A stretch of 64,000 nt of DNA from Escallonia rubra (Eukaryota > Streptophyta > Magnoliopsida > Escalloniales > Escalloniaceae). The stretch spans positions 124,001 through 188,000 of the forward strand of contig JAVXUO010001151.1 in the NCBI GenBank assembly GCA_033065855.1, given 5' to 3'. The position numbers were made by a program, and so were the translations under genes. Of the stretch, positions 5,700 to 50,372 are shown one piece after another (the first letter of the stretch is position 1; every line of letters starts with the position of its first letter). The notes under the pieces were generated by a model. That model saw only the letters and a program-made list of their open reading frames with translations, did no database searches and was not told where the DNA came from.

Positions 5700-7410
5700 G
5701 GCCTAATCCCAAAGTTGTGCCCTCAAGTTTATCTCCAGTACAACTTTAGTATCCAACTTTGAAGGTGTGCCAAAGAAGTACCTAACTTTGAAAAAACGTA
5801 CCAAATCAGTACCTCGGCTGACGAACGACGGATGTCGTTAGAAAGTCAGAAAGGTAGGACTGTCATTATTAAAAAATTTGTGTTTTTACTTAAAAAGTTC
5901 AGGTACTGACGGTTTACTTTTCATAGGTACTCTTTTGGTACGATTTACTTTTACTACTTTTTCTTTTCACAGTCATTCGATGTGGCACTATCTTAAACGT
6001 TTGATTATTTTATCTTCCTTAATTAATCATTAAAAACTCTTTATCTCTCCCTCTCCCTGTCATCTCGGAGCCACTGCCATAATCAGTTGTCATCCTCATC
6101 GTCCAGACCAACGACCCACCGTCATCGCCACCGGTCTTGCCACTGCCACCACTTACATTAGTGACCCCTCACCACCGATCTGGCCACTGCCACCTCCCAC
6201 ACCAGTGAACGCACCACTGTCACCACCGATCTAGCGACTGCCATTACCTACTGACATGGTTACCACCATCGTCGCCAGCATCCAAATCAATCTCCAATCA
6301 CCACCGACGCTCACATCCATGACCCAAGACCAATCGTCGTCGGTGCACCCAGTAATGGGCACACAGGGTGTTGGGTTTGTGATGGCTGCATTGGGTTTGT
6401 GACGGCGATGGTGACATGCGGTGGTCGGCGACGGTGTTAGGCGACGATAGTGGTGGTGGTGGTCTGGTGGGTGATGGTGGCAATGGATAAACCGTCGATC
6501 TGGCCGATCTGGCCACTGCCACCTCTCACACTACTGAATGTACCATCGATCGAGTGACCGCCATTACCTACCGACCTGTTTACCACCATTATCCTTGACC
6601 GCCGGTGTCTAAATCAATCTCCAATCATCGCCGGCGCTCACATCCATGACCTAAGACCAACCGTCGCCGGTGCACCCAGCACCACCACAACCTAACATCA
6701 CCATCACCACAACTCTTACGCAGTGGCATCATCACTGCCGGTGGACTGAGCAAGAATTTTTAAAAACTGGGGTACTGGTTATAACACGGATTTTGTGCAT
6801 AATCTTCTCCTTTCGGGTGACACGGTTCTGTAGAATCCGTGGCTTGGTTGCGAGGAGAGTTTGAATGTGCACAATCTTCTCCAAGGCTTATGTATTTTGC
6901 TTCAAGCCTCTTACTGTGTGCGGATATGTTGGTAATGTGTGATGGTCAACAGTGTTGGGTTTGTGGCGGCGGTGTTGGGTTTATGATGGCAGTGACCACA
7001 CACGGTGTTGGGTTTATGACGGGGATGGTGCCACACGGTGGTCGGCAACAGTGTTAGGCGATGATAGTGGTGGTGGTGGTGGTCTGGTGGGTGATGGTGG
7101 TAATGGATAAACAGTACCAAAGTCGAATGACTGTGAAAAAGAAAAAGTAGTAAAAGTAAACCGTACCAAATGAGTACCTATGAAAAGTAAACCGTACCAA
7201 ATCAGCACCTGAACTTTTTAAGTAAAAACACATTTTTTTTAATAATGACAGTCCTACCCCCTCTGACTTTCTAACAGCATACGTCGTCCATTAGCCGAGG
7301 TATTGATTTGGTACGCTTTTTCACAGTTAGGTACTTCTTTGGCACACCTTCAAAGTTGGGTACTAAAGCTGTACTGAAGGTACTTGAGGACACAGTTTTT
7401 GGATTAGGCC
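5700..7410. mobile_element. Mutator-like non-autonomous element (MULE 1)
   Basis: Long terminal inverted repeats of about 290 bp run from 5700 to about 5990 and from about 7120 to 7410, with outer ends GGCCTAATCC and GGATTAGGCC. A perfect 9-bp target duplication, AAAAAAGAA, flanks it at 5691-5699 and 7411-7419. Long TIRs plus a 9-bp duplication are the signature of the Mutator superfamily. The interior is rich in CAC/GTG triplets and internally duplicated: about 6175-6350 resembles 6505-6682, and about 6395-6492 resembles 7020-7113. No transposase is present, so it would have moved in trans. Open frames inside are proline- or histidine-rich triplet artefacts. Confidence 0.88.
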
Positions 7411-8269: not shown

Positions 8270-9411
8270 TGTATACACCTCATTTATGTAGTTATTAATA
8301 ATTAATGGGCCTTATTATTAAGTAGAGTGCATTATTGAGTTTAAGCCTAGTAATGTGGCTTAGTTAATTAATTTAGTCCAGTTCAATTGTTAAGTCTAGT
8401 CCAGTGTCAGTCCACTCCAATGTATAGATTTAACTTAATTTGATTTAGTTTGTTTAGATAATTTGGAAAAATAATCTATGAATTATCAGTGATGTAAAGA
8501 TTAAATCAATTATTTTTATGGTTAAAGATGAATTATCCCGAATATGATATATCTCATATGCAAAATTAGAGATAATTATCGAAATTAGGGTAAGATAATG
8601 CCTCAAAATTGAATTTTTTTTTAATTATGGGATGAACCGACCGATTTAAGACTAACCAGCCAGTTAATTGACTTTTATTAATCTGTAATTTTATCCAATA
8701 TTCTGACTTATCTCCATCCTTGCAGATTGGCATAAATCAGATTCTGCGACCCTGAGCACTAGAAATAGAGCCCTTAGCCTTCATTTTCAGGGGTATCTGA
8801 TCTTGATTTGGGTGAGTTCAGGAAGCTTATTCTCATTAGAGCTTGTGTACCATTTCTTCGTGAAATGATACGTTGTTCTTTCAAGAATCCTAGTCGTTCA
8901 AACTCACTTTAAAAAGTCTTTTCATCCTTGCATCATGGATCATTCAGAGAGCGTCCCCAAGTCCTCGCAGGAAGCTACTTCAAGAGGTATCTTTGAGTCT
9001 AGGTCTAAGTCTCGGAATGTAGAATACTTCCCATAGGACCAAACTCGAACTACGGCGGGTTTGATTCCAGTTATTTTGACCAGGTACATAGGCAATTCGA
9101 CCCCCAATGTCGAGTTCAAACCAAAAACATAAAAATAAACTTAGGGCAAGTTTTGTTGTATTTTATGCTTTATGTATTTTTAAGGCCAATAATCAATAGA
9201 AACGAAGTAGGGACCAAAAAGGCGTGGCGCGAGTGCCTAACACCTTCATGTCTCGTAACTTAGTTCCCAAACTCATCTCCCGGTTTCGGATAGATTAGTC
9301 GTCCTTTTAGACACTTTGGAGTCATTCTTAGGATTTTCTTATTTTTCCTATTTTGTTTAGTTAAATAAGATGGCAATTCGCTAGGGGATTTTGTCGAGGC
9401 GGTTTGCTACA
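8270..9411 (+). repeat. 5' LTR of the Tat-type element
   Basis: It begins TGTATACACC and ends GGTTTGCTACA. It aligns along its length with 27717-28929, sharing blocks such as TTATTAATAATTA near the start, CAGATTCTGCGACCCTGAGC in the middle and AAATAAGATGG near the end, with many substitutions and small indels. This divergence means an old insertion. Confidence 0.8.
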
Positions 9412-21664: not shown

Positions 21665-22960
21665 GGGATAATACCATTTACTCTCCTGAACTGTCCCCGT
21701 TTTGTAATTTTGGTCCCTGAACTTTAAAATTCATTAAATCAGTCCATGTACTTTGTGCTGTCATCAATTTAGTCCTTCCATTAGCATTTCTGTTAAAACT
21801 CGGGGGTATTTTAGTCAAATAATGAAAAAATATGGGATAATACCATTTTAGTCTCCTAAACTATCCCCGCTTTTTTAGTTTGGTCCCTGTACTTTAAAAT
21901 TCGTTAAATCAGTCCATGTACTTTGCATCGTCATTAATTTAGTCCCTCCGTTAGCATTTCTGTTATAAATTTAGGGATATTTCAGTCAAGCCCTAGCCTT
22001 ATAGTCCTCAACCTCTCCCCCTTACCTTTCTCTCTCTTCTCCCTTCCCCGTCTTCCTTTCCTCCCTCTCTTCTCCATCCTAGAAGCCACCACCAAAATCA
22101 CGAACTCTAAATTTCATCCCTTTAAAACTAAACCCATCAATCATCTTCCACTACAATTACATATGACTCACCACATGGAACATCCCTTACCTGATTTAAC
22201 ATACCCTTCATCCTCCCTCCCAACACCAACACCCCAATTACAGCAAAGGAAACTAGGAAGCCCACCCAATTCCTTCCATTCTCAGATCTGCAACGAAAAA
22301 TGACAAGAATCTGCAAAGGAAACCCAGGAAGGTCACCCATCTCTATGGAGGGCTTATGCATTCCACCAATTGCTAGAGAAAAGGCGGAAGCGATGATGGT
22401 TGATTTACGGTGGTCGCAGCAGATGTGGGGGAAGAAGAATGGGGGAGAGTTGGGGGTTAATGGCAGGTATGATGAACAGGTCTTCTTGTGGCTGAGAATG
22501 GTGGTGATCAAACGGCTGGTGGTGATGGTTGATTTATGGTGGTGGTAGCAATGGTGGAAAGGCGGCGGGGGGGAAGGGGTGGTGTGGGTTGGGGGAAGGT
22601 AGAAAGGGAAGATATATGAAATATTTTTTTATTATTTGACTAAAATACCCCCGAGTTTTAACAAAAATGCTAACAGAGGGACTAAATTAATGACAATGCA
22701 AAGTACAGGTACTGATTTAACGAATTTTAAAGTACAGGGACCAAAATAAAAAATCGGAGATAGTTCAGGGGACTAAAATGGTATTATCCCATATTTTTTC
22801 ATTATTTGACTAAAATACCCCCGAGTTTTAACAGAAATGCTAACGGATGGACTAAATTAATGACGATGCAAAGTACAGGGACTGATTTAACGAATTTTAA
22901 AGTTCAGGGACCAAAATAACAAAACGGGGATAGTTCAGGGGAGTAAAATGGTATTATCCC
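21665..22960. mobile_element. Mutator-like element with doubled terminal inverted repeats (MULE 2)
   Basis: A perfect 9-bp target duplication, TAAAATTAA, flanks it at 21656-21664 and 22961-22969. The outer ends are GGGATAATACC and GGTATTATCCC. Each arm holds two tandem copies of a terminal unit of about 169-170 bp: 21665-21833 plus 21834 to about 22000 on the left, and about 22620-22790 plus 22791-22960 on the right. The unit copies share blocks such as GTTTTAACAGAAATGCTAAC. The interior of about 620 bp has a pyrimidine-rich stretch and an open frame of 124 codons (22137-22511, -) without family motifs. There is no transposase. Confidence 0.88.
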
Positions 22961-27716: not shown

Positions 27717-28929
27717 TGGACACCCCATTTTTGTAATTATTAATAATTAGTGGGCTTTATTATTAAATAGAGTGAATTATTAAGTTTAAGCCTAGTAATG
27801 TGGCTGGCTTAATTAATTTAGTCCAGTCCAGTATCAGTCCAGTTATGTCAGACCAGTCAGATGTCTAGATTTAGTTTAATTTGATTTAGTTTGTCTAGAT
27901 AATTTGAAAAAATAATATGTAAATTATCACTAATACAAGGTTAAAGGCAAATTATCTCGAATTTAGTACATCCCATATACAAAATCATAGATATTTACCA
28001 AAATTAGGGTCAAATAATGCCTTGAAATTCTAAAAAATTATTTTTTAAAATATGGGATGAATATGCCGATTTTTTACTATCCACACGGTTAATTTGTCAA
28101 TTTGAAATTTTATCCAATATTTGGACTTATCTCCAGCTTTGCAGATTGGCATAGTCAATCAGATTCTGCGACCCTGAGCGCTATAAGTACAACCATTCGC
28201 CTTCATTTTCAGAGAGTCTTTGATCTTGGTCAGTTCAAAAAGCTTATTCCCTTTAGAGCATGTGTACCATTTTTCATTAAGTGATACACTATCTCTCTCG
28301 AGAATTCTAGCCGTTCAAACTCACTTTAAAAAGTCTTTTCGCCTTTGCATTGTGGATCATTCGGAGAGCCTCCCCGAGTCTTCGCGGCAAGCTACTTCAA
28401 GACGTATCTTTTATTTTGCTTTTTAGTGTAGAAAATCACTTTAGATTTGTTTCTCATTCCCGTAGTTGCATTAAAAAAATGGGTAAAAAAGAGTCTTTTA
28501 CATTTCTGAGTCTAGGTCTAACTCTCAGAATGTAGACTATTTCCCGTAGGACCAAAGTCGAACTACGACGATTTTTATTCCGATTAGTCAGACCGGATAC
28601 GTAGTCAATTTTACCCCCGATGTCGAGTTCAAGCCAAAAGAATAAAAATAAACTTAGTGTAAGTTTTGTTACATTATATTTTAAGGCCAATAATCAATAG
28701 AAATGAAATAGAGACTAACAGGGCATGGTGGGTGCCTAACACTTTTCCATTGAGTAACTTAGTCTTCGAACCCATCTCCTAGTTTTCAATAGATTAGTTG
28801 TCCTTTAGGACACTTTAGAGTCATTTTTAGGGTTTTCTTATTTTTTGATTTTGTTTAATCAAATAAGATGGTAACTCCATAAAGTCCTTTCTTAACGAGA
28901 AGATTTTTCCAAGGCAGTTCGCTTCAACA
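27717..28929 (+). repeat. 3' LTR of the Tat-type element
   Basis: It begins TGGACACCCC after a purine-containing CGAGGGGCTT tract that may be the polypurine tract, and ends CGCTTCAACA. It aligns with 8270-9411 but is about 70 bp longer, with an extra block near 28400-28500 and another near 28880. Confidence 0.8.
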
Positions 28930-29982: not shown

Positions 29983-30991
29983 GGTAGCGTTTGAAACAAT
30001 TTTTGTTTTTAGTTTTTTGTTCAGTTTTGAAACGTAGAAAAAATATTGTCGTTTGACAGACAATTTTAGTTTTTTTTTTTACCTTCAGTTTTATAAATCC
30101 GTTTTCAAAATAATTAAGTCTATTTTTTAAAACACCATTTTGGATTTTTCAGTTTTTTTTATGGAACATTTTTCAACTTTTGTTAGAAGCATTTTATGTC
30201 TCTTCTTCCCTTCAATATTCATGACCAACACTTATCACCCAAGAATGACCAACACCCCTGAACACCAAACTACGAACACTGCCAACCACCACAGCCATTG
30301 ACCGCCGATCTGCCACCACCACTGATCAACATACCCGAACACTAAACTTGCCAACACTACTAACCACCATAGCCACTGACCTCGCCACCGCCACCGCCAC
30401 CGCTACCACCACCAGTGATTAACACCCACAAACACAGCCAACAACCATAGCGACTGATAACCACTACCATTGACCAATACTGCCGAACACCTCTAAATCC
30501 AATTCACCATCATACCGACCACCATTGATTCTATAACAAATACCATAAACAAATTTCATCCATCGATTAGTCCTAGTATCTTTGATTTGCATAGGTAAAT
30601 TCCAAACTAATCATACTTTTCACTCAATCAAACCAATGATGCCATAATTCACAAGCTAGTGTGTTACTATTTTTTTTTTTTGATGCAAAGTGTGTTACTA
30701 TTATAGCAATAGTTGGACGATGGCATAGGAGATGTGTTGGTCATTGTGGGAGTACTTCTAGTTGTTGAACAAAAGAGCTCAGAAAAAGCTCTCAAGTATT
30801 AGAAAATGAAAGAAAAAAAGAAAGGAAAAACTGAAAAGAGAAGAGAGAAAAAAAAATAGAAAAAAAATCGAAAACTAATTATGTAAAATTGTAACCCATC
30901 AGTTTTGTAAAATGATAATAATAATAACTCAAAGAGGTTTTCGTTTTTCAAAGAACAAAAACTGAAAACTGAATGAGTTTTGACCACGCCC
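29983..30991. mobile_element. probable non-autonomous TIR element
   Basis: The left end (GGTAGCGTTTGAAAC, then ATTTTTGTTTTTAG) and the right end read in reverse (GGGCGTGGTCAAAAC, then CAGTTTTTGTTC) are imperfect inverted repeats. Each end is flanked by TA (29981-29982 and 30992-30993). The interior contains CCACCA-type triplets at about 30290-30420 and an A-rich right arm. No transposase is present. The superfamily is uncertain; Tourist/PIF-like or another TIR type is possible. Confidence 0.45.
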
Positions 30992-31191: not shown

Positions 31192-31197
31192 TTTATT
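31192..31197 (-). terminator. AATAAA polyadenylation signal of the ABCG gene
   Basis: On the - strand AATAAA lies about 25 nt beyond the original stop codon at 31222-31224. It is now separated from the active stop by the 1.2-kb insertion. Confidence 0.45.
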
Positions 31198-31221: not shown

Positions 31222-31253
31222 CTACGTTATTGTCCTCAATTTCATTCTCCTTA
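31222..31253 (-). pseudogene. stranded original 3' end of the last ABCG exon
   Basis: Read on the - strand and joined across one TTA/TAA target duplication, this tail continues the ABCG frame in phase with eight more residues, RMKLRTIT, after the Arg that closes LFLR, and then TAG (31222-31224). That matches the basic C-terminal tail usual in this ABCG clade. The insertion at 31254-32456 disconnects it from the rest of the exon, so it is now untranslated. Confidence 0.85.
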
Positions 31254-32456
31254 CGGTCCGTTTGGAACCAATTCTTTTAGGATTTGGATTTCATATTTGA
31301 AATTGGATTTGGAATTCAATTCACTTTTTTTGTTTGAAACGAAAGAGAATTCAAATCACAGAATTCCAATTTTGTGTTTGGAGAACAGAGTAAATGGAAA
31401 GATAATACATTTTTAGACAATTATATCCTTGACTTACAATGAAAAACAAATTACGGTAAGTGGTTTCAAGTGTGCTAGTGCCACCACATGGTGGCGGTGG
31501 CGGTGGTAGTGACAGCACTGCACGGGGTAGCAACATCGACGGTGAAAGTGGTGAGGTGGTCAAGTGATGGTAATGATGGTATTGGTGGTATTGAGGTGTA
31601 ACAAGGTGTAATTGGTGGTCATCAACTGACGTCAATAGTGATGCGATGATAGTAGTTGTGTCGGTGGTGGCAATAGTGGTGGCGGTGGCGGTGGCAGTAG
31701 TGATGTTGGCAGCGGTGATGGTGGTGGTGGCGGCAGTAGCGATGGTGACTGTAGTGGTGGTGGCGGCGGCGGTGGCAATATGGTGGCAGTGGTGGTGGCA
31801 GTAGTGGTGGCGACAGTGGTGATGGTGGTGGCATTATTGGTGGCTATGGTGGCTGTGGCGGCAACAGTGGTGGTGGTGGTAGTGGTGGCAATAGTAGTGG
31901 CGGTGACAGTAATGGTGGCGATGGTGGTAGTTATAGCAGTACTAGCGGTGCTGGTGGTGGCAATAGTGGTGGCAGTAGTGGTGGCGACGGTGATAGTTGT
32001 GGCAGTACTGGCGGTGGCGGTGGCAGTAGTGGTGGCGGTGGTTGTAGTGGTGGTGGCGGTAGTGTTAGCGGTGGTTGTGGCAACAGCGACAATGGCGGTA
32101 GTGGTGGCAGTGGTGGTGACGACGACGGTAGTGGTGGTGGTAATAGTGGTGGTGGCAGTAGCGGTGCCGGTGGTGGTAGTAAAAGTGATGTGGCTGTAGC
32201 GGTAATGAAGATGGTGGTGGTGGTGGTGGGTTCATTGTTGGAGAGATCCTGAAAATGGTAAGATATGTAAATAATTACTTTTAATTCAAGTAAATCGAAA
32301 TCCCATGAAATCCGACCATTTTTCTTCGGATTTCACACTAGAGAAACAAATCCAGTCAAATCCCATGAAATCCAATTCCTTTTTTTAATGTTCCAAACAA
32401 CAAAATTTGAGGATTTGAAATGAAATCTCATCAATTCCATGGTTCCAAACACACTC
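31254..32456. mobile_element. PIF/Harbinger (Tourist-like) element inserted in the ABCG last exon
   Basis: The termini are CGGTCCGTTTGGAACCA at the left and, inverted from the right, GAGTGTGTTTGGAACCA. The 3-bp target duplication is TTA at 31251-31253 and 32457-32459. A GTTTGG-containing TIR with a TTA duplication is typical of PIF/Harbinger Tourist-like elements. Inside lies a long imperfect GGT/GGC triplet array at about 31485-32235. The 139-codon frame at 31780-32199, nearly all Val and Ala, is an artefact of that array. There is no transposase. The right end supplies the present ABCG stop codon. Confidence 0.85.
31485..32235. repeat. imperfect GGT/GGC trinucleotide array
   Basis: The + strand is about 750 bp of GTGGTGGC-type triplets with interruptions (GTAGTGGTGGCGG and variants). 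It has no coding meaning. It forms the core of the PIF/Harbinger-like element. Confidence 0.9.
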
Positions 32457-35400
32457 TTAGGAACAAGTAGGCCAGCATTCGATAACCAATGATCATCACC
32501 AACATAGCTCCCACTTCAGCTCCACCACTGTCGAGCCTTTGCCCTTGGATGGAAGGGGTGTCACAAGAACCTGATCCATGCTGCAAACCGGAGCATTTGT
32601 ACTGAATCTTTAGGAGAAGCCTGTATGTGTGATAGTTGAAAGATACATATCGCACCCATGACATGAAAGGTGGAACCTTCTGCAGCCATATACAAATAAA
32701 CAAGCCAAAATTCATTGACCCATGTTGTTTTCTCCAAATTATCACGTGTAAGTAATTCAGCTCGAGCTGATTCTCCTTAAACTTTTTTATGCCAACGTAA
32801 GGAACAAATTACTTAGGTATAAGGCCATCTTTACCTGGATAAAGAATCCACCAGCTAACATGAATGCCATAACAACTATTGAAGCCAAGGTTGTTGCTTT
32901 CTTCACATCCATGAATGCTGCGCCTATGGCCAGTCCTAGACCCTGCAGTTGATTTGCAGTTCATAAATGTATTACTTCTCGCATGACATTTCACACATCA
33001 GAGACACAAAATCATGGCAACCCAGGATTTATGAGGATGTGTTAGCTTCCTAATGCCATATCTTTTGCATAAAGTTACAAAGTCGTCAGTAATGTTAATT
33101 TATTGCATGATGTACAATATGGTGTATCCTTTCTTTTGACTTGTACCTAAACGATTAACATGTGTATTTCCTATTGAGTAGTGATTTCGAAGGGGTACCT
33201 GAGAAGCAACAATGCTGAGGAAAATTGTAAGTAGGGTAAGCAAAAATGCAAGGAAGCTTGGCTGCAGTCCCACCATGAAATAGACTATCACCAGGAACAC
33301 TAAAGGCAATATGAGGTCCAAAGGAAGATCACTGGTGTTTCTCGCTACCAAGTATGCACTGAGTCTGTACATGCCCACCGACCTCTCTTTGACTAGCATG
33401 GCCCTTTCTTGAGGGAAGGTGAAAATGGCTGTAAATAGAGGGAAAAAGGCCCAGAATACTGAAATGAAGAACAAGAGTCCTTCCTGCATGTCAAACAAAT
33501 CAAACTCAGTATGAAAGCATAATATAAGCTTGTAGTGTCTCAATGAACAAGTAATCTTATCCTCTGATATAAAAAATTTCACTGTTGGAATTTAAATAGA
33601 AATCTACAAGGAACACGGCCTAGACATTATGCAGTAGTCTAAGATACAGTAGTAAGGTCAGAAGTTTGGAGAGGAGTACTAATATCTCTAATTCTGTGTG
33701 GGGAAATTACCAAACCTTTGTGCAGATGGTTCCGTGAAGTCCTGTCTAAAGGATACTTGTCTTGAATTGTAACTGGTCTGCCGATTCGTATGCATAAAAA
33801 TCTATTTTGAGAGTCCTTCTAGTGTTAATAGAGGGAGCTCTGTACAACTCTCGGGGTTGGTACATCTCCAGGCATAAAGCCCCAACATACTGAAACTCTT
33901 TTACACTCATCCTATCATATATAGTGTGCTTCCACTGACAGGACATTAGTAAAAACCAGAACAATAAGCATCAGTACCTGGTCTTGAAGTTGCTTGGGAG
34001 AAGAAGCAGCTGAGTGCCACCAAAGGAGTCCTACAATTAAAGCAGTGGTAATAACTTGGGTTATTCGGATACTGCTAAGATATTCATGACGCCTCTCCTT
34101 AAGGCCTCTCCTGAAGAGAATCGAGAACTGTTCTCCCCAACGTGCTCCTGGCTCCCTTGAGTTTAGCCAATCCAGCTTCTCAGGATTTTCCTCAATCAGC
34201 GTAGGCTTCAGAAACCTTGTTTTTTTCATGTTCGCAGCTCTTGCTTCATAAGCCCCTAGAAAGTACTTCAATAAATAAAAACATTATAATTAAGATCTGT
34301 TGTATATTATTTTTTTGGACAATCTCTATGTCCTATGCCAATTTGAAGGGCGAAAGGAAAGATCATATGGAGCTGATATTAATATGTCACAGATAGAATC
34401 AGCATATGAACAAAAGTGGACATATATTGGATCAACTTGAGGGAGAACAAAATTAAGAATGTGACCAAAGAACCTGGGCTATATGGTGGTTGTTACCTCT
34501 TGGGCATCAGATGATGAAAAGTCCCAGTCATTATGTTTATAATTTTGGCTAGCATGTAAGAACTTATCCTTCAATTCTGAAGGAACAGATTTGTCCTTCA
34601 TGTTTCCATTTGCAAGATCGATGAGGAACTCAGCTGGATTCATGGCTATACAAGGAGAACAACCAATTGATGAGAAATATGGCATTGCATCCGAGGCTTT
34701 TCCAGAGTACAATGAGCTTCCTTTCCCCAAGAGAATTAACTTGTCAAACTTTGTGAAGAGCCTACTTGATGGCTGATGTATTGTGGCCACCACTGTCTTT
34801 CCTGCCTGCAAGACAAGTATAGTTTGCTGTTATGCTCTACATACCTTGAGTAGTGAGATTATTACAAAGTCATAAGTTACGCAGATAATTACTCTCAATT
34901 CTGGTCAATTATAGTGTGTTGTTTTTGTAACGAGTAAGGTTAATAGGAAATATCGGGCTTGCTTGTTTCTTCTTATAAGATTACGATGTCTCTTTCTAAG
35001 GGACGATTGAAGTATGAAATATCCAGTTCTGAAAAAGTTCAGTACCTGAGCAATGTTATGCAGCATCTGAACAATCCAAAGTGCTGTGGTTGAATCTAGA
35101 CCAGATGTTGGTTCGTCTAAAAATAGAAGTGATGGGTTCAGCAGAATTTCATTCCCAATGCATACTCGTTTTCTTTCACCACCCGAAACCCCTCTCACCA
35201 ATGCTCCACCCATTATTGTATTTTGGCACCTGAAAGAAGACATCATTTTATCCTTTTCAATCAACTTCATCATATTAAACTGCAAACTTGTGGTGTTTCC
35301 ATTTGCCATGTAAATGGGACAAAGGATTGTAAAGTCCTACGCGTCTCCAAATGGTATCCAAAATTTTTAGTTCTCCAAACTGTTCATTTCCCAGTCCTGA

Positions 35401-37391
35401 AAAAGCATCCTATGCTATGACAGTGCCACTTAATAATCTAAGATGCGCATTTGACTGAATGAATCCCTTACGTATCCCTGGCTACTTGTAAGCATCCCTT
35501 ACGTATACAACAAAAAGTCTCTCAATCTCGCAAGTAACTTACAATTGCAGGACTTGCTCAACAAAAAGTCTCTTGTTGTATTAGCTAAAACAGTGGATTC
35601 AACTATGATAATTGATTTGTTACACGCTTGAAGTTGAACATGAAACCATATGTCAAGTAGCACGAAGAGGCACCTTTCAAGACCAAGCTCGCCTATAACG
35701 TGCATGGCTCTTTCCTTTTTCTCTTCTTTGGATAATGTGCTAGGAAGACGAAGCAGGGCAGCATAAGTTAAGGTTTCTTTGACTGTAAGATGTGGAAACA
35801 CAACGTCATCTTGTAACACAAAACCAATCCTGTTTAAGCACAATCATGTGATGATTAGCTAGTCGTTAATTAAGCACGTAGAAAAACTCTGTACCACAAC
35901 TATTTTTTTTCTCGAATAACCTGCTGTTTTTATCTCGCTCATCACATCACGTTTATCGTGTGATGAGAGATATAAACACTACCAACACATATACCTTCGC
36001 TTCAGTGATTTGCCATATGGTTGATCGTTGTAAGTGATGGTACCCTCATTGTTTTTGACCTTTCCACTGAGGAGGTTAAGTAGTGTTGTTTTACCACCCC
36101 CAGATGGTCCCATGAGGGCAAGAACCTCTCCTGGGCTCACTGAACCAGTGATTCCATGCAGTATCCGTTTTTCTGCAGTCGAGTGCTTCTCCCCTTTGAC
36201 CGTTACCTTGTATTTGACATCTTCAAACTGCAAATTCACAAGCAATGAAGCAGATAGGACCGGAGTTGTTCTTTGCGAAAAAGAAAGTAGAAATGAGGGT
36301 ATAAACTCTCCAAAATTGAGATTCAGATCCCAATCCGCTGAAGTTCCTTTAGGAACAAGGAACAAGGTTAATTTTGTCGCTATAAATATCAAACTGTTTT
36401 GTTGCAAAAAGTTGGGTTTAGTGACAAACAATACTTTAGAGACGATATTCACTTTTCTATACGTTTAAGACAGAGAGAGGGATCGGAATCCCTTGTAATC
36501 TAGATTAGGAAAACGGAAGTCTCTGAAAAGAAAACCGCAAAAACAACCTCGAGACGTATGGGTAATGTAGGTTCCATATGCATTTTCCTCCAACACGGAT
36601 CTTCCTCGGCAACTGATGAAGATTGCTTCATATTACTACCTTCTGCTTATACAACAAGAGCTAGTTAGCAGTAACAATACAAGCTACTCGAACTCAATTT
36701 TCAAACTGAGTCTTATAGCAAGTCTTCTGATGCATAGGAAAAGAGAAAATCTTCAAACTCCAATTTTATTCCAAATTTTCTATGCATTTTCTCCTTTGCT
36801 GAACTCTCTTAACAAAACCGCAAATGTCAGACGAGAGGGAAAAAAAATGTACAAAGCTGTATTAGTTTGTTCAACCACTTCCTTTGGTCTAAGATTTGAT
36901 CACTTTAGAAACCAAACGTTTAGTAAAAGTTAGCCAGCTGTAGTGAAAACTGATTACAGCTTACTTCGGCTAGGGCTCTGCGGTCTCCGGGCATGAGAGA
37001 CATTGCCATCAGAAGGAAATGAAGACCCAGAAATCGCGAGGAATCCCATTCCATCACCAGAACCCCAGTTTAGATTGGTGCCTTCTTCATCATAACCACC
37101 AGCTGTGACATTGTTGATAAGTTCATCTATGTTCAGTATGAATTGAGCACTCAGAGATTTTGCTTTACGGATAGTTTTTCCTTGTGGTGATGAACTCATT
37201 TTCAGTTCAAAGCTTCGCGTCTTCTGCGTGTGAATCTTACTTTTGCTGTCCCCCGAACTTGATAGAATTGAGGTTTGGCTTATTCCTGAAGGTACAAGAG
37301 CAGCAACCCGGCCAGCCTTTAGAAGAAATGCAGTTTCGTCCACTTTGTTCAAGTCATCCGAGCACCCGAAAGTTTCTCTTTTCACCTCCAT
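32431..37391 (-). CDS. ABCG (WBC) half-size transporter, ABCG22/ABCG27-like clade
   Basis: It is a membrane ABC exporter of the G subfamily; the substrate cannot be told from sequence, and relatives such as Arabidopsis ABCG22 affect stomatal water loss. Ten coding exons join in phase with GT-AG introns: 37391-36965, 36642-36548, 36227-35995, 35829-35674, 35229-35046, 34805-34497, 34265-33978, 33483-33199, 32942-32835 and 32679-32431, giving 777 residues. A Ser-rich N-terminal region (1-170) precedes the nucleotide-binding domain: Walker A GPSGGGKT 214-221, Q-loop Gln258, signature VSGGE 318-322, Walker B LLFLDEP 338-344, H-loop His375. The membrane domain starts near 515 with about six hydrophobic segments (e.g. 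[59 protein letters not shown]). The final VCLEPWN and TGA come from an inserted PIF/Harbinger-like element. All core motifs are kept, so it is probably functional. Confidence 0.93.
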
Positions 37392-38613
37392 CAGTGGTAA
37401 ACTGATATATCATAGTACAACCACAAAGTTAATTGCAGCCAAACGAGGGCTCTTGGCAGTGTAAGAATACTCAATGAAGGTTATATCAGCATATATTCTA
37501 GTTTAAACAAGGAATGAAGTATCCAACTTCCAGACTATTATATACAAGCATTCTACGATTTTTGATATCTTTCTTTGGATGACTTAATTAAGAAAGAAAG
37601 GGAAGGCTGTTTCTCCTTTTGTAAGCTAATTTTAAAAAAGCACTTGCTAATTTTAAAAAAGCATGCATGTTTGATCTGTGTGAGCATGTGAATCTAGTGC
37701 AGACATAGTTGCAAAATAAGGGTTCATATCTCTCACCAACAAACATTTCAGGTAACGAAGAAGAAATCTCCATTATTGTAGAAAAAAAAAAGTGTGAATA
37801 GATAAATCAATCCCATGCTAAATTTTTGATATACTGAACTCTGGTACATGAAGAAATGAACACAGAAGAGAGTTAGAAAGAAGATTACTTGTAGGCAAAG
37901 TTGCGGGCAGTTATTCGAATTCTCAGGAAGGAAGAGAGAAGCTCATACAAAAGTAATTTTAAGAGTTCTCAAATAGAGTATATATAGAGACCTACCCTTA
38001 TAATCTCGGGTGACTCAAGTACCATAATGCATTCGGGTGACTCCATTTCATTTGCAAGTGCCTTGTCTCTCAATCAATGCTCTTGTCGGACATTGAGTGT
38101 AGCTAAAAATATTACTTTCCGTACCAGTATATATTGGTAAGGTCAAAAATCCAGAGTGTCTTTGGCCCTAAAGCATCAACTATGGTTTTGCTACAGCCAT
38201 GGTTGTCACTGTAGGATCTAATTCTCCCTTCACTGTCAATATACCGTCAATCTTCAGTGCCGCTTTCACTACAAACTTTATAGTGAATTTCAGTAACAAT
38301 TTTGCAAGGTGCGCCCAATGCAGTGGCGAGGCCACCTCTGGGAAATTATTTCCACCATGAGTGTTGAGGGGAAATAAGAATTAAATTAGCCATCTAAAAC
38401 ACAAAAAAAGATAAAGACAATGACAGAGTTAATTAAGGTGAACTTGCCCACCTTAAATCAGTTAGAATAAGTAAAGGGTCGTCCACCTTAAGTAATTTGA
38501 TCATTAAAGAACTTGTGAAAGCGGTTTTTCCAGTTTTCCCCATGTATGCATAAGTTTCTAGCCTCACAAATCGCTACCTGTTATAGAACTGCTACTAACC
38601 ATATTTAACAATA
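37392..38613 (-). promoter_or_regulatory. 5' region of the ABCG gene
   Basis: A TATA-like CTATATATACTC lies on the - strand at about 37976-37987, roughly 590 bp before the ATG at 37391. A candidate 5' UTR intron could run from a CAA/GTAATC donor near 37886 to an ATATATCAG acceptor near 37402. Both are guesses by eye. The region ends at the Helitron border, about 1.2 kb upstream of the ATG. Confidence 0.35.
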
Positions 38614-41418
38614 CTAGCACAGAATCCCGTGCCAAGCACGGGATTATTTATTAACAGTAATTTATTTTAGTATTTTTGAAATGCATAATAAAATATATTG
38701 AACAATTTTAAAATTTTATGGTTATTTCATGAAAGATAGTTACTTTAATTTTTGGTCTGAATTTCTTGTTATAAAATAAATTAACCCTTCTGGTGACATA
38801 TCAATAAGTAATGTCCTTGTGCGTATTTGCTAATTTCGATTTGGTAACTACATAGATGAACAAACATTAAAAGTTTATTTAGTACACAAAAAATAAAAAG
38901 TAAATTTTACTGATAAAAATATGCGGAGAACATATTGAGATCAATTTGCTATTGCATAAGACATTTTTATTATTTTCTAAGTATCTTTTAAAAATAATTT
39001 GTACCTTTGAATGGGTTGCCCATAACGTTAATTACATATTAGTTTAATTTTGATAGAGAAAATTTTGGTCCATATATTTGTTTATAGAATGTGAATTATA
39101 AAAGTTAATCAACACGACTAATTAAATAAAGATGATGTGGCATTTTTAGAAGCAAATGAAATCTACCAACAAAGTATACAGAGAAAATAGTAATCAGTGC
39201 ATGAGATAATTATATAAAGTTTAAAAAGTTTAACAAACATGACTATATATAGGATAGTTTAAAACCTCATAGTAAGGATATTGTTGAACAAAATTTAACT
39301 AACAATTCACAAATTATACAATAAGCATGCTTACTAAGTAAGATTTGTCTTCCGATATAATAAGGTTTTCAATCTAAGTTTTAGTCTACATTCATCACAA
39401 AATAACTAATATCTTCTTAGATTTTATACGTAATTCTAATTGGAATTATAAAAGTTAACATAAAATCATAAATGGTTTGTAGAATTTAGAATGCTTAAGA
39501 GTTTAATTACTCACAACTAAAATATCATAGAAAAAAATTTGGTTCAAATTTTTTTTCAACATAGAATTAGTTGAATTTAATAAATGGTTACATAATTAAG
39601 GTTTTAAATTTACTGTTTTCATATATCTCATATGAAATTTGCATATTATGGTATTTTTACATTTAACCAATGCGACTAAATAGGATATTGCAAAACTTTA
39701 GAGTGAAAAAATTACTAACCAAAATCTTTAACCAACATATTTATCAAGTTAGATTTATATTTGAATTTACAGAAAACTTAAATATGAATTTGAAATAGTA
39801 CCTTATTTTTCTTATTAATATTTCATGTTAGAGAGCTTTTTCAATATATAATATTCAAATAAAGTCATAATAGGTTACTATATTGGTTAGAAAATTTGAA
39901 TGTTTCAAATCGATTTCTAAATTGCATAACGCTTATTATTTAAATGTTTAATGTATTTGCTAATCTAATTAATTGCAAAATTAAGGACCCCGTTCAAAAC
40001 AATGTTTGAAAATCTTTAGCAATATTATTATATATAACATTAGTTTTTATAACTCTTATTATGTTAGAAACACAATGCAATGAGGTGTCATGAGTTATCA
40101 TTGTATTTCTCGCCTCAGTTATTAAATATTATAGCTCATGATCTCAAGTCAAGCTCGAGTAAGTTAATAAAATATTTTTAAAAGTTACAAAAAGTGTATC
40201 AATGCATACCGCATTTTAAGAAACAAAAAGATATTAACATCTTATGAAAAAAAAAATCTACTTTTGCTAAGACTATAGCCCGTTGGTGAGAAATTTTTAT
40301 TGCTTTATTTGTAACAGCTTCGAGTAACTTGTCAAGACTATATTATTAGGTTCTTTTAGTGGTCCAGCCTATAACATTTCAAAATCAAGTCTCTTAGCTT
40401 GAAAAGTTAGGTTAAGAGTTCTTTATCTTTTGAATCATAAATGTCATAATCCATTCTTATCTTCTTCATGAATCATTATTTCAAAAAATTACCAATTTAT
40501 TAAGATACGAACGTGATATCCAGTAGAATATTTTTCGTCTCATACACATTTAGAATTGTAATTTTGATTAGATGATCATACAATTGTTGCGGAGTATTTG
40601 CATTGGTATATATGTTTGCTTTAGTTCCTTCGAACTATAAGTTTAAAGAATGATGAGTATATTGTGTTACAATGTCGTCGCTAGATTTTTGCGTTCTTTA
40701 AACTTTTCTTTTACATCGTCAAACAGTAACGTAACATGAACAATCTACTCATTGTTCTTTCAACTTACAGTTCAAATGAACTAAAGCAAATATATATGCG
40801 TACGCAAATATTATACAACAATTGCATGCCAATCTAATCAAGGTTTTAATAGTCAAAGTCAAAGGCTAATACGTAAATATACATTTGTAGCATAGAGTTT
40901 AAACGTTGTAAAGTTGGTAAAGAGTTTGATTTGTTTTTTAAATCCTTATATATGGGATATAACCAATGTGGTGATTGTGAGGTCTTATTTAAAAAGATGA
41001 CTTATAATTTGTTTATTAAATCTATATATCACATTATTCATTTCTAACGATGATTTTTTATGTATATTATGTATATATCTATATATATCAATAATGATGG
41101 TACATTTAACTCAATTAGAATTTCATATTTTTCCCTTCTAAATCTCATATGTTATTTTTGTTCTATCGATAGATGATTTTTTATATTAACATTAAAGAGT
41201 GGTTTTAATAAAACAATAGTCAAAATTAAGTCATAATAAGTTATTGTATTGATTAGGTTGAGTTCTAAAATATTTAGAATTATTTTTTTAAATTATACAA
41301 CTCTCATTATACTTGCAACATTAATCAAATTTAAAAATAAGGTACCTATCAAAATTCAAATCAATTGATAGATCATTTTTTTTCCTTGTAACATTAATTT
41401 TTTCTTCTAAATCGAAAG

Positions 41419-41457
<39 letters not shown>

Positions 41458-41864
41458 TTTTTATATTCATATTAGAGAGTGCTTTTGAAGATATAATAGT
41501 TAATATTAAGTCTTGATAAGTTAGTATAAAGATTAGGTTGAGTTTTAGGATGATTAAAATTAGTTTTTGAATTACATAGGACTTACAGAAAACCTTTATT
41601 ACTCCTTAAAAAATAATTACATATAAGAATAAGGATTTCATCAAAATTTAAATTAGTTAATTGATCACATTTCTATTTTAAATCTCATAGGTTATTGTTT
41701 GAGTCTATGAATTTTAATTTTCATATTAGAAAACACTTTTGAGGACATAGTTGTCAAAATAAAGTCTTAATAGATTAGCATATTATTGATTACGTAGAGT
41801 TTTAGAATGATTAGAATTAATTTTTAAATTAACTTTTTCTTCTAAATCAAAAATATTATTTTAG

Positions 41865-45468: not shown

Positions 45469-45856
45469 TGTAGAAAATAATAAAGCAGGAAGAGTGGTGT
45501 ATAAAACCTCACTACCAGAAGAAAACAAAGTTGTATAACTCTCTCACAGGAAGCTCTCGTAATAGACCTCACGAAGAGAAAACACTCAATAGATGAAGAG
45601 GTAAACAACAGAAGAATAAAATGCTTGTGAAGGGATACTATATTCAACTAAAGGACTGCGCGCCTATATATATATGCTTACAACACTCCATGGCGTGCAT
45701 GATGCACGTTCTCCACCTCCACTCCTAAAACTAAGCAACAACTCTACTAACCCATTACTCCACATACTAGGATCATGCTAAGGACTCAGTAACAAACCAC
45801 TAACATAAACCACTAACATATAGTTAACCCACGAGCTGGTGTTGACTACTTCAATA
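45469..45856 (-). repeat. 3' LTR of the copia element
   Basis: It shares nearly all of its sequence with 49992-50369. Differences include an extra AACATAAACCACT-type block near 45797 and a changed (TA)n stretch near 45663. Confidence 0.92.
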
Positions 45857-45865
45857 CTCCCTCTC
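45857..45865 (-). other. polypurine tract of the copia element
   Basis: On the - strand GAGAGGGAG lies directly before the 3' LTR (TATTGAAGTAG). This is the usual second-strand primer position. Confidence 0.6.
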
Positions 45866-46408
45866 AACACTAGCTCCTCCTTTGTTTGCCATCCTAAGCT
45901 GACGACGGAAACTCTGGAACTTGTTTTCACTTAAACTTTTTGTCAACAAATCTGCAACTTGATTTTCCGTTCTGACATGCTACAGCTTGATCTCCTCTTG
46001 CAAGACCTTCTCTCTAATGAAATGATAATGCACTTCCACATGCTTAGTCCTTGCATGAAAAACTGGATTCTCGGCCAAACGTATTGCTGACAAGTTATTA
46101 CAATACAAAGAAATTGGATACTCTATTGGCTGATGCAAGTCCTCCAATAGTTGCAAAATCCAAGTGCTCTCTTGAGCTGCCATTGCCACTGCTCGGTACT
46201 CCGCTTCTGTGGTTGACAAAGACACTGTTGGTTGTCTTTTGCTACACCACGAAACTACTCCAGACCCAAGCGTGAAAATATACCCGGTAGTTGAGCGTCG
46301 GGTATCATGGTCACCTGCATAGTCAGCATCACAAAAGCCAACTAGCTTACAATCTCCACCTTTCTTGTATATAATTCCATAGTCAAGTGTACATTTGACA
46401 TATCTCAA
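45866..46408 (-). pseudogene. copia RNase H domain
   Basis: The frame from 46408 contains [37 protein letters not shown] and the segment up to [18 protein letters not shown], which is the copia RNase H with its acidic residues. It runs into a TAG at 45980-45982, where relatives continue without a stop (HVRTENQVADLFTKSLSE-like, seen just below). It is out of frame with the RT piece above. RNase H degrades the RNA template during copying. Confidence 0.85.
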
Positions 46409-46439
46409 AATCCCTCAAACTGCTTCCAAATGAAGCTTC

Positions 46440-47083
46440 TTAGGATTTTGCATGTACCGACTCATCACGCCAACTGCATAAAAAAATGTCAGGTCTTGCT
46501 AGAGTTAAGTAGATCAAACTACCCACCAACTTTCGGTACATCGTCGCTTCTTTCAAGTCGTTTCCTTCATGAGCACACATCTTAGCGTTTGGCTCCATCG
46601 GCGTTGAAATTCGTTTGCAATTTAGCATTTCAAACTTCTTCAACAGATCTTTAGAATACTTTTGTTGATGGAGAAAGATTCCTTCTTCACTACGGTCAAT
46701 CTCCAAGCCAAGGAAGTGGTTAAGTTGTCCAAGCTCTTTCATTAGGAAGCGAATTGAAAAATTCTCCTTTGTTTGGAGAATTTCTTCCTCACAATCTCCT
46801 GTAATTAAGAATCAGATCATCTACGTACACTAGCACAATGGCTAGTTTTCTTCCAACAGCTTTGACAAATAAACTGGAATCCGCCGTTGCTACCGAATAT
46901 CCACTGAGTAAGAAATTCAGCAATCTTACCATACCACGCCCTCGGTGCTTGCTTTAATCCGTAGAGAGCCTTCCGAAGCTTACACACATACTCAGGATGA
47001 TCTCGACTTTGGAAGCCCATCGGTTGACACATGTAAATCTCCCGATCCAACTCGCCATGAAGGAATGCATTATTTACATCCAT
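46440..47083 (-). pseudogene. copia reverse transcriptase, second half
   Basis: [32 protein letters not shown], a YVDD catalytic box at about 46815-46826 and [10 protein letters not shown] mark the copia RT. A frameshift occurs after EFLTQ (about 46910), and another near 46495 beyond LARPDIF. A TAG at 47093-47095 separates it from the first half of RT. RT would act in cytoplasmic particles. Confidence 0.88.
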
Positions 47084-47095
47084 CTGCCATAAATT

Positions 47096-48022
47096 CTAAT
47101 CCTTGCTAGCTGCAAGTGCAAGTAGAACTCGCACACTTGTAAGCTTTGCAACTGGACTAAACGTTTCATCATAATCTAGTCCATATTGTTGAGAAAACCC
47201 CCGAGCTACTAGACGAGCCTTATGTCTCTCAATTGATCCATCTGTATGAAGCTTTATCTTATAAACCCATTTGCAAGAAATAGGTTTGACATCTCTCAGC
47301 TTTGGCACGAGCTCCCAAGTTTGATTCCGTTCTAATGCCTCGATTTCATCTTCCATAGCTTTAATCCATTTTGGATTTTGAGATGCTTCCTCATATGTCT
47401 CTGGCTCTTTTTCATCTGTTTTTTCCATGATGGCGACGTTGGCATACTTGGGATTTGGCTTTCTCGTTCTTGCTGACCTTCTGAGGAGAGGTGTTTCCAC
47501 TCCACTAGAATCACCTTCTTCGCTTGGTTGTTGATACACACTAGTTTGCCAAGGATTTTGAGCCACGTCTTCTTCGGCATTACCTTCGTCGACTGTACCA
47601 TCAACTTCGCTCAGGGGGATCTGAGAAGATTCTAATGCCTCTTTAAAAATATATGAGTTAGGGAGTAGTTCCTCATCTGAGGACCACCACGAAGAAGCTT
47701 CATCAAACACCACATTTCGGGATGTGTAGCACTTCCCAGTTACTGGATCACAGCACCGCCATCCTTTCCTTTGATTTTCGTATCCTACAAAGATACACCT
47801 AACAGCCTTTTTGTCCATCTTGCTACGTAAATGATCAGGTACAAATACATAGCATACACAGCCAAAAACTTTGAAATAACTTACAGTATGCTTTGTGCTC
47901 CATAATTTCTCGAAGGGTGAAAGGAAACTTAACCTTTGTTGAGGAAGTCTATTGATCACAAATACAGTCGTCCTCATTGCTTCTGCCCAAAATCGCCCAG
48001 GAACATTTTTAGCGTGAAGCAT
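47096..48022 (-). pseudogene. copia integrase C-terminal part and first half of RT
   Basis: The 308-codon frame begins with integrase C-terminal motifs (WAEAM, INRLPQ, and F-G-C-x-x-Y at VFGCVCYVF), then a spacer, and from about codon 205 the N-terminal RT block (W-x-x-A-M at KWIKAMEDEI, WVYKIK, KARLVARGFSQQ, YDETFSPVAK). It ends at a TAG (47093-47095) just before the next RT motif. Confidence 0.88.
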
Positions 48023-48047
48023 ACTTCAACATATTTCGGCCAGGTGC

Positions 48048-48512
48048 CTATTCTTCCTTTCTGCTACGCCATTTTTGCTGCGGTGTGCTAGAGCATGTGA
48101 ACTGATGGCATATCCTGCATTCTCCAAGGAAATCTGAGAACTCATCTGAGGTATACTCTCCTCCGTTGTCGGTGCGTAGACAACGAACTTTTTTGCCAAC
48201 CTCTGCTTCTGCTTCCTTCTTGAACTCTCTAAACTTTAAAAAAGTCTCAGATTTTTCCTGCATAAAGTAAACCCTTACATACCTCGAAAAGTCATCAATG
48301 AAGGTCACCGTGTACTTCATCCCACCGATGAAAGCTTGTCTGACCGGCCTAAACACATTAGAGTGTATTAACTCTAATGGTTCCTTTGCTTTAAATTTGG
48401 ACTCTTCAAATGGCAACTGGTGTGGTTTTCCATACTGACAGCCTGCACACACCGTGTCTATTCTCACTTCAATTTGAGGAAGTCCCTTTAGCATCGACTT
48501 CTTCATCATCAC
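48048..48512 (-). pseudogene. copia integrase catalytic core
   Basis: It carries the second half of the zinc finger (CAGCQYGK) and the D,D-35-E core: HSNVFRPV, where the first catalytic Asp is replaced by Asn and a Gly by Arg; then RTDNGGEY with the second Asp. After GECRICHQF the frame shifts (about 48080), so the catalytic Glu region lies in another frame. Both the substitution and the frameshift would abolish activity. Confidence 0.85.
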
Positions 48513-49034
48513 ATCTAGCTAGGAATAGCTAACATGACTTAGCCGAATATGCCATAAATTAGCAGTCTCTTTCCTCCTTGCCTTGTCTACATATACAGTC
48601 TCTGCTGACAGCACATAGACTGACTCTAACCTTTGTCCCTTGATCATCGGCTCTTCAATAATCTCAAGGTCACGATATACCTTTACATCTTGTGGACCAA
48701 ACAAGACAAAATGGCCAGAAGATGTTAATTGTGCTACCGAGAGAAGATTCTTTTTCATACCTGGGACATGATAGACATTTTGAAGTGGCAACTCATCATC
48801 ACTGGATTGGGAAGAGATAATTGCACTACCGACGTGAGCTATCGGTAACTTCGAGTTGTTTGCTATCACCACCACACGACTTCCCTTGTAATCTGACAAA
48901 TTTTGTAGCTTTTCCACATCACCCGTCATGTGATTGGAGCAACCTGAGTCAACAATCCAATCTTTTTCATAATTGATTCAATTGGATGTTATAGCTGTAA
49001 AAGCAAGGTCCTCTTCTTCTGCAGCAAAGAATGC
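48513..49034 (-). pseudogene. copia protease and GAG-pre-integrase domain
   Basis: The protease active site [13 protein letters not shown] (about 48905-48945) keeps D-S-G. LLSVAQL and the GAG-pre-integrase motif [11 protein letters not shown] (about 48526-48560) follow. A TGA at 48978-48980 lies before the active site, and a TAG at 48519-48521 ends the frame before integrase, whereas relatives read through. Confidence 0.85.
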
Positions 49035-49042
49035 CTCAGATC

Positions 49043-49921
49043 TCATTCCTCCTCGACCTTGAAAGTAGCAGCATTACTCTCCACGCCCTTTTTCTTCGAC
49101 CTACATTCTTTCGCCATATGTCCCTTATTCTTGCAATTAAAGCACCGCCCTTCAAACTTTTTGCCACGACTTTGACTCTTTGAGCCTCCCCCTCCACGAG
49201 TGCTCCATTCGCTTTGACGACCTCCCGTATTGTTATCATTCTTTTTAAATCCACCGGCACCATGCTGCTTTGAATTCCATCTGCCGTTATTGGCATAAAG
49301 TGCTTCCTCTTGACCCTTTGGTGAAGCTCCTCCCATTTGCTTAGCTAAGGCTTCTTGACCAGCTAGTAAATTCTTGAATTCTACAAGCGACGACTGAATC
49401 CATCCTTGTACGGCAGCAACAAAGCCTCTATATTCAGGCCTCAGACCATGGATGATGATTCCCTTCATCCTCGTCTCTCTGATCGGAGCTTGTGGATCTA
49501 ACTCCGAGATCTCCCGGCATAACATCTTCACTTTATGGAAGTATTGTGCGACTGTCATGTCACGTTGCGCTATTGAGAGTAATTCGCTCTCTAAGAGTTG
49601 GAGCCTCGTGTCATTTTTCTTCAAAAATAGCTTGGTGAACGTATCCCAAGCCTGTTTTGGGGTTGTGGCGTCTCGGATGTGTTCTAGCACATCTTCTTCA
49701 ACCGTTGTCTTCAAGGCGAACATTGCTTTGCCCGCTTTCATCTTCCACTTTCGCAGCATGCCATTTGCATATTCGGCTTCCGGTTGTGTCACCTCGCTAC
49801 CGTTGACAACCTCCCACAGGTCTTGCCCTTGCATGTAAGACATCATGCAAGTTGACCATGTATTGTAGTTGCTGTTGTTGAGCTTTTTTATTCTGCCGAC
49901 AGCTTGTAGGTCCGTCATCAT
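49043..49921 (-). CDS. copia Gag protein (open frame)
   Basis: A 292-codon open frame encodes a plant copia Gag. It has an N-terminal YNTWSTCMMSYMQGQDLW region, a UBN2-type core (PKQAWDTFTKLFLKKNDTR, MLCREISELDP, GLRPEYRGFVAAVQGW) and a Gly/Lys-rich C-terminus with one zinc knuckle CFNCKNKGHMAKEC (near residues 260-273). It is intact from the ATG at 49921 to TGA at 49043, but the fusion to pol is broken by a frameshift right after it (about 49040). Gag alone could still be made if transcribed from the 5' LTR. Confidence 0.88.
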   Translation of the reverse strand: MMTDLQAVGRIKKLNNSNYNTWSTCMMSYMQGQDLWEVVNGSEVTQPEAEYANGMLRKWKMKAGKAMFALKTTVEEDVLEHIRDATTPKQAWDTFTKLFLKKNDTRLQLLESELLSIAQRDMTVAQYFHKVKMLCREISELDPQAPIRETRMKGIIIHGLRPEYRGFVAAVQGWIQSSLVEFKNLLAGQEALAKQMGGASPKGQEEALYANNGRWNSKQHGAGGFKKNDNNTGGRQSEWSTRGGGGSKSQSRGKKFEGRCFNCKNKGHMAKECRSKKKGVESNAATFKVEEE

Positions 49922-49976
49922 GTCGACAATAAAACTCTCACAAAACTACAATAGATGATCTCCCAAAGAATGCCCG

Positions 49977-49988
49977 GCTCTGATGCCA
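49977..49988 (-). other. primer-binding site of the copia element
   Basis: On the - strand TGGCATCAGAGC starts three bases after the 5' LTR end. It resembles the TGGTATCAGAGC usual in copia elements primed by initiator tRNA-Met. Confidence 0.75.
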
Positions 49989-49991
49989 GAT

Positions 49992-50369
49992 TGTAGAAAA
50001 TAATAAAGCAAGAAGAGTGGTGTATAAAACCTCACTACCAGAAGAAAACAAAGATGTATAACTCTCTCACAGGAAGCTCTCGTAATAAACCTCAGGAAGA
50101 GAAAACACTCAATAGATGAAGAGGTAAACAACAGAAGAATAAAATGCTTGTGAAGGGATACTATATTCAACTAAAGGACTGCCTATATATATAGGCTTAT
50201 AAACTGAACACTCCATGACGTGCATGATGCACGTTCTCCACCTCCACTCCTAAAACTAAGCAACAACTCTACTAACCCATTACTCCTACATACTAGGATC
50301 ATGCTAAGGACTCAGTAACAAACCACTAACATATAGTTAACCCACAAGCTGATGTTGACTACTTCAATA
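49992..50369 (-). repeat. 5' LTR of the copia element
   Basis: It is nearly identical to 45469-45856. In element orientation it begins TATTGAAGTAG and ends CTACA. The TA start instead of TG is shared by both LTRs. Confidence 0.92.
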
Positions 50370-50372
50370 CCT

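Follow-up and report, generated by a model that had tools for sequence, protein, structure and literature searches.

We analyzed a 64,000-nucleotide stretch of an Escallonia rubra contig (JAVXUO010001151.1, positions 124,001 to 188,000 of the forward strand), hereafter the window. Its minus strand carries a gene for an ABCG half-transporter, the last coding exon of which is interrupted by an inserted element (Table 1). The gene model was built by hand and by eye, with borders picked to hold the reading frame and the GT-AG rule, and the occurrence of GT-AG at nine of nine introns is therefore partly a product of how the model was made. Its ten exons (37391-32431) yield a spliced translation of 777 aa with one stop, which is terminal (32433-32431). 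Matches of this protein to PF00005, PF01061, and PF19055 all exceed the curated cut-offs. The ABC ATPase domain (PF00005, residues 197-346) is N-terminal and the ABC-2 membrane domain (PF01061, residues 513-722) comes next, the order that identifies an ABCG half-transporter. Among proteins of solved structure, the best relative is Arabidopsis ABCG25 (E = 1.5e-155; PDB 8i38 and others). It has the same domain order but, unlike the gene described here, carries no such insertion.

Table 1. Coordinates in the window of the ABCG gene, the element inserted in it, and associated signals.
Feature	Position	Strand	Basis
ABCG half-transporter gene, up to new stop	32434..37391	-	spliced translation of 777 aa, Pfam domains, closest solved relative ABCG25
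Exons of ABCG gene	37391-36965, 36642-36548, 36227-35995, 35829-35674, 35229-35046, 34805-34497, 34265-33978, 33483-33199, 32942-32835, 32679-32431	-	gene model
Exon 10, the last coding exon, in its present reading up to VCLEPWN and TGA	32431..32679	-	gene model
Right target-site copy TTA (on the gene strand, TAA inside CTA-AGR, Leu-Arg)	32457..32459	.	direct reading
Insertion of 1203 bp, putatively non-autonomous, with Tourist-like ends	31254..32456	.	inverted ends (13/17, including GTTTGGAACCA), TTA on either side
New stop TGA inside element	32431..32433	-	sequence reading and gene model
Best splice acceptor inside element (TTACCATTTTCAG|G; exon would start at 32248)	32248..32261	-	score 6.1, untrained matrix
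Degenerate GGT/GGC/AGT trinucleotide array inside element	31480..32230 (limits approximate)	+	TRF rows; strict triplet scan 31636-32206; lag-3 autocorrelation 0.55
Left target-site copy TTA	31251..31253	.	direct reading
Stranded 3' end of old coding exon: rest of Arg codon, RMKLRTIT, TAG (31224-31222)	31222..31250	-	joined tail aligns with ABCG25 LRRIK
AATAAA, 25 nt past old stop	31192..31197	-	sequence scan

The two ends of the element are inverted with respect to each other. They agree at 13 of their first 17 positions, 11 of them consecutive (GTTTGGAACCA), and the outermost two bases differ. With up to one mismatch, this 11-mer occurs twice in the window, a count that is not beyond chance by itself (shuffles average 1.72 occurrences, and 50 of 100 reach two). 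The weight of the pair comes from its arrangement, because both copies match exactly, stand in inverted orientation, and lie six bases in from their respective ends. A local alignment of the 230-bp ends scores 36, where the highest of 500 mononucleotide shuffles reached 32; this is weak support because the best match is subterminal, out of register, and AT-rich. A pattern search of the window with up to one mismatch returned no copies besides the two ends themselves. Likewise, blastn of both ends at E values up to 1 turned up only short, weak matches elsewhere in the window, none of them a clear second copy (the best being 44 nt, 79.5%, E = 0.003, at 41659-41701).

About 750 bp of the element is the trinucleotide array, and the remainder comes to about 450 bp. 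Lag-3 autocorrelation is 0.55 in the array, and two control stretches give 0.28 and 0.31. The array is also the sole match of a strict triplet scan in the window, and the same scan gave zero matches in five shuffles. By inspection, the long open frames of the element are located in the array and have low-complexity translations only, and we rejected them as genes. The RNA fold of the element, in which the ends pair with the array between them, was set aside as evidence, because folds above 1000 bases came without a shuffle control.

The insertion point lies nine codons before the old stop, and the duplicated TAA falls within the Leu-Arg codons CTA-AGR. The element now supplies the final two bases of the Arg codon, then VCLEPWN and a TGA (32433-32431), which is in frame and seven codons past the junction-spanning Arg codon. 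Beyond the element, the same frame goes on through RMKLRTIT to a TAG (31224-31222), and joining the flanks gives LFLR-RMKLRTIT. The predicted protein is 777 aa with the element and 778 aa in the flank version. The predicted exchange costs eight residues and gains seven, behind the last membrane helix; counted from the shared Arg to the C-terminus, the net charge is +4 in the flank version and 0 with the element. An earlier, sequence-only reading of this DNA had described a TTA-flanked 1203-bp insertion in the last coding exon, with an array of about 750 bp rich in GGT. It had also placed an in-frame stop after seven residues of the element, a flanking frame running on to RMKLRTIT and a TAG, predicted lengths of 777 and 778 residues, and an AATAAA 25 nt past the old stop. 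Each of these holds at the coordinates given here (the AATAAA starts at 31197), the array being recovered by both the autocorrelation and the strict scan. That reading also spoke of a rewritten C-terminus, which overstates a swap of eight residues for seven behind the last membrane helix. The change to the protein is small, and the distance from the stop to the poly(A) signal may outweigh the change of tail.

Whether the flank version is the ancestral one can be judged against ABCG25. The solved C-terminus of that protein is ...GYRVLAYLALRRIK plus one residue (LALRRIK plus one residue), an LRR-I/M-K end directly behind the last helix, as in the flank version here. Aligned to ABCG25 with phmmer, the element version matches as far as the Arg by the insertion (residue 127 of the fragment) and scores 91.6 bits. 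The match of the flank version is three residues longer, placing RMK on RIK (96.1 bits), and a shorter query agrees. Three codons that match RIK equally well occur at 155 of 127984 positions in the window (both strands). If a preceding TAA, the same frame, and Arg as the first residue are also required, 3 of 2956 positions qualify, and the insertion site is one of them. These comparisons favor the flank version as ancestral, on good but not conclusive evidence from one relative and three residues. The proposed loss of a short basic tail is borne out to the extent of this one solved relative, with its LRRIK. The further description of the tail as the one expected for this clade agrees with the same single structure. 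In AtABCG21 and AtABCG22, too, the domain order is the same and an LRR-I/M-K end sits right behind the last helix, the C-terminus of AtABCG22 having the similar form LR-x-MK. Mutants of AtABCG22 have open stomata and greater water loss (PMC5624933).

Taken as a whole, the locus is probably explained by transposition: a Tourist-like non-autonomous element entered an ABCG gene that is intact in other respects, at a TTA nine codons short of its stop, and duplicated that TTA. The element would be transcribed along with the exon, and translation would end at its TGA. The protein would thereby lose the basic tail RMKLRTIT while keeping all of its domains. The transcript would either be longer, and exposed to long-3'UTR decay, or end at a signal inside the element. 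Candidate poly(A) hexamers in the element lie 42 and 146 nt (ATTAAA), 195 nt (AATGAA), and 593 nt (AATAAT) after the new stop, and the old AATAAA (starting at 31197 on the minus strand) is 1234 nt past the last base of that stop. Because plants degrade mRNAs with unusually long 3'UTRs (PMC3711448), this distance makes a lower transcript level likely unless polyadenylation takes place within the element. The larger predicted effect is on the mRNA, which could be degraded, polyadenylated within the element, or spliced to a strong acceptor there. We expect a mildly to moderately reduced transcript, a near-normal transporter, and no new function.

A harsher outcome, in which long-3'UTR decay leaves the allele effectively null or strongly reduced and the gene is heading to a pseudogene, strikes us as unlikely. 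It would fit the 1234 nt to the old AATAAA and the response of plant decay to long 3'UTRs (PMC3711448). It would also fit the wheat element Mariam, considered below, which is kept in the transcript of a carrier accession and for which a decreased real-time PCR signal is mentioned (PMC6824096). However, the ten exons and their splice sites are intact, so the gene has no sign of decay elsewhere, and the ATTAAA hexamers in the element could end the transcript early. A haplotype error or heterozygosity at the insertion locus is possible.

Tourist-like elements of the PIF/Harbinger type have a 3-bp TTA/TAA target-site duplication, GTTTGG-type inverted ends, AT-rich ends, and no evident gene, and Tourist MITEs usually measure a few hundred bp, under about 600 bp. 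The element here shares with them the TTA/TAA duplication. It resembles them in the GTTTGG-type core of its partly matching inverted ends, in the AT-rich ends, and, as far as inspection of its long open frames goes, in having no evident gene. It is unlike them in its length of 1203 bp, about twice the usual limit, and in the long degenerate GGT array in its middle. Given this length, of which about 750 bp is array, we name it Tourist-like and not a Tourist MITE. Tourist-like (PIF/Harbinger-type) is the label that fits the element best, as a putative member of that group. The same label in the sequence-only reading draws on the target-site duplication and the end sequence; it sits less well with the size, the array, and the lack of a clear second copy in the window. 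Those three points, with the differing outermost bases, are what would speak for another kind of inverted-end element, or for a rearranged array that lies by chance between two TTA. We hold such an origin to be very unlikely, given the two 11-mers, identical and inverted, that lie six bases in from either end, the position of the ends directly beside TTA, and the homologous C-terminus that is restored when the flanks are joined.

Splicing could alter what the insertion does to the transcript. We scored donors and acceptors with untrained matrices and summed the two values, on which scale the nine ABCG introns reach 2.9 to 9.4. One arrangement would make the element partly intron-like by joining a donor at 32454 (AGA|GTGTGT) in frame to the acceptor at 32248, replacing the tail with 105 Pro/Leu/Thr-rich residues from the array that end at 31931. 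The acceptor (6.1) beats seven of the nine acceptors of the ABCG introns, the sum (4.4) is within the range of these introns, and the frame is open for all 105 residues. The donor (-1.7), however, is below all nine ABCG donors (lowest -0.3), the matrices are untrained, and a trinucleotide array is expected to hold open frames anyway. This arrangement is accordingly rated as improbable as a non-Tourist origin of the element.

A narrower form is more of a long shot still, namely that 32455 is joined to 32248 in a small share of the transcripts or in certain tissues, turning the array into coding sequence for a 105-residue Pro/Leu/Thr-rich C-terminal extension. If true, the array of the element would be a ready-made low-complexity tail for the transporter. 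In a wider form of the idea, inverted-end elements of different superfamilies would repeatedly carry GGT/ACC-rich cores (the window has one clear case and two weaker ones), and such tails could arise repeatedly.

In maize, some Ds and dSpm alleles are reported to lose the whole element from their transcripts by splicing. For the present element, we scored GT-AG pairs spanning it (donors 32540-32381 with acceptors 31300-31191). Nine such introns would restore the KLRTIT end, and they score -4.3 to -12.9 with the same untrained matrices. The pair 32452 with 31249, which gives LFLRVRMKLRTIT (LFLR-V-RMKLRTIT, with one extra Val), scores -10.4. The best pair of any kind reaches 0.5 (32486 with 31205) and would remove the end of the last helix. 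That most transcripts lose the whole element, and so keep the old basic tail or nearly so, is most improbable: such GT-AG pairs exist, one of them yielding the near-original tail, but all pairs tried score 0.5 or less against 2.9 to 9.4 for the introns of the gene itself, and we rejected full removal on these scores.

Transposition of a Tourist-like element, the reading that we prefer, has a counterpart in wheat. Mariam is a 307-bp element in exon 6 of the 5-formyltetrahydrofolate cyclo-ligase gene; the mRNA keeps it, and a stop and an altered, shortened C-terminus result (PMC6824096). Both cases involve a miniature element in a coding exon, an internal stop, and an altered C-terminus; retention in the mRNA is described for Mariam (PMC6824096) and predicted here. 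Mariam differs in its 307-bp length, in being without terminal inverted repeats, in its 9-bp duplications, and in disturbing a domain (PMC6824096). Here, in contrast, the predicted loss is confined to the last eight residues. We class the two as events of one kind, the present one involving another element and a milder outcome; insertions that give a stop and a new C-terminus were already documented in plants (PMC6824096).

Literature searches covered MITEs whose interior holds repeats, minisatellites, or GGT; MITEs that lie in coding exons or are linked to stops and polyadenylation; ABCG C-termini; and ABCG genes with MITE insertions. Within this limited set of open-licence papers, none returned work on this case among the matches listed, and one search on the first subject matched no paper. 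The insertion is an ordinary kind of event and leaves general views unchanged. It does indicate that coding exons can receive MITE-like elements that carry a long trinucleotide array. It also offers a natural case in which a transposon shifts the stop codon of a membrane transporter with the domains untouched, so that the effect of the basic tail could be measured apart from that of a 3'UTR extended by 1.2 kb.

Two other inverted-end structures were seen in the window. At 29983-30990, about 260 bp further downstream of the ABCG gene, is a possible second element with CTA on both sides and weak ends; its ACC-rich core (30225-30535) has a lag-3 value of 0.38 (controls 0.28 and 0.31). The other spans 1711 bp (5700-7410). 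It has inverted ends of the form GGCCTAATCC and inverted arms that match at 89% over 121 nt; the low-complexity sequence AAAAAAGAA flanks it on either side, so it is perhaps Mutator-like. Its interior has GGT/ACC-leaning stretches with lag-3 values of 0.34 and 0.43 in two parts, against the same controls (0.28 and 0.31). The strict triplet scan of the window found no GGT array in the core of either structure, and since its only match was the array of the main element, we disfavor reading these cores as GGT arrays. Repeat-containing interiors of MITEs are discussed for Arabidopsis (PMC10342631) and are of a different kind from the GGT/ACC cores here.

Several further repeats occur in the window. 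A Copia-type retrotransposon lies at 45469-50370 on the minus strand, with direct repeats over 396 aligned positions (91.7%) and gag, integrase, and RT domains spread over several open frames. Long direct repeats at 8275-9379 and 27720-28877, of about 78% identity and 19.4 kb apart, may be the LTRs of a large and old element; a Pfam scan of 11 of the 27 open frames of at least 90 aa between them gave no match. At 38613-38642 on the minus strand, a CCCGTGCTTGGCACGGG hairpin is followed by ATTCTGTGCTAGT, a combination that we take to resemble a Helitron 3' end. Last, 21677-22960 contains 170-bp tandem repeats (22621-22790 and 22791-22960, 94%), which are also within inverted arms of 292 nt at 92%.
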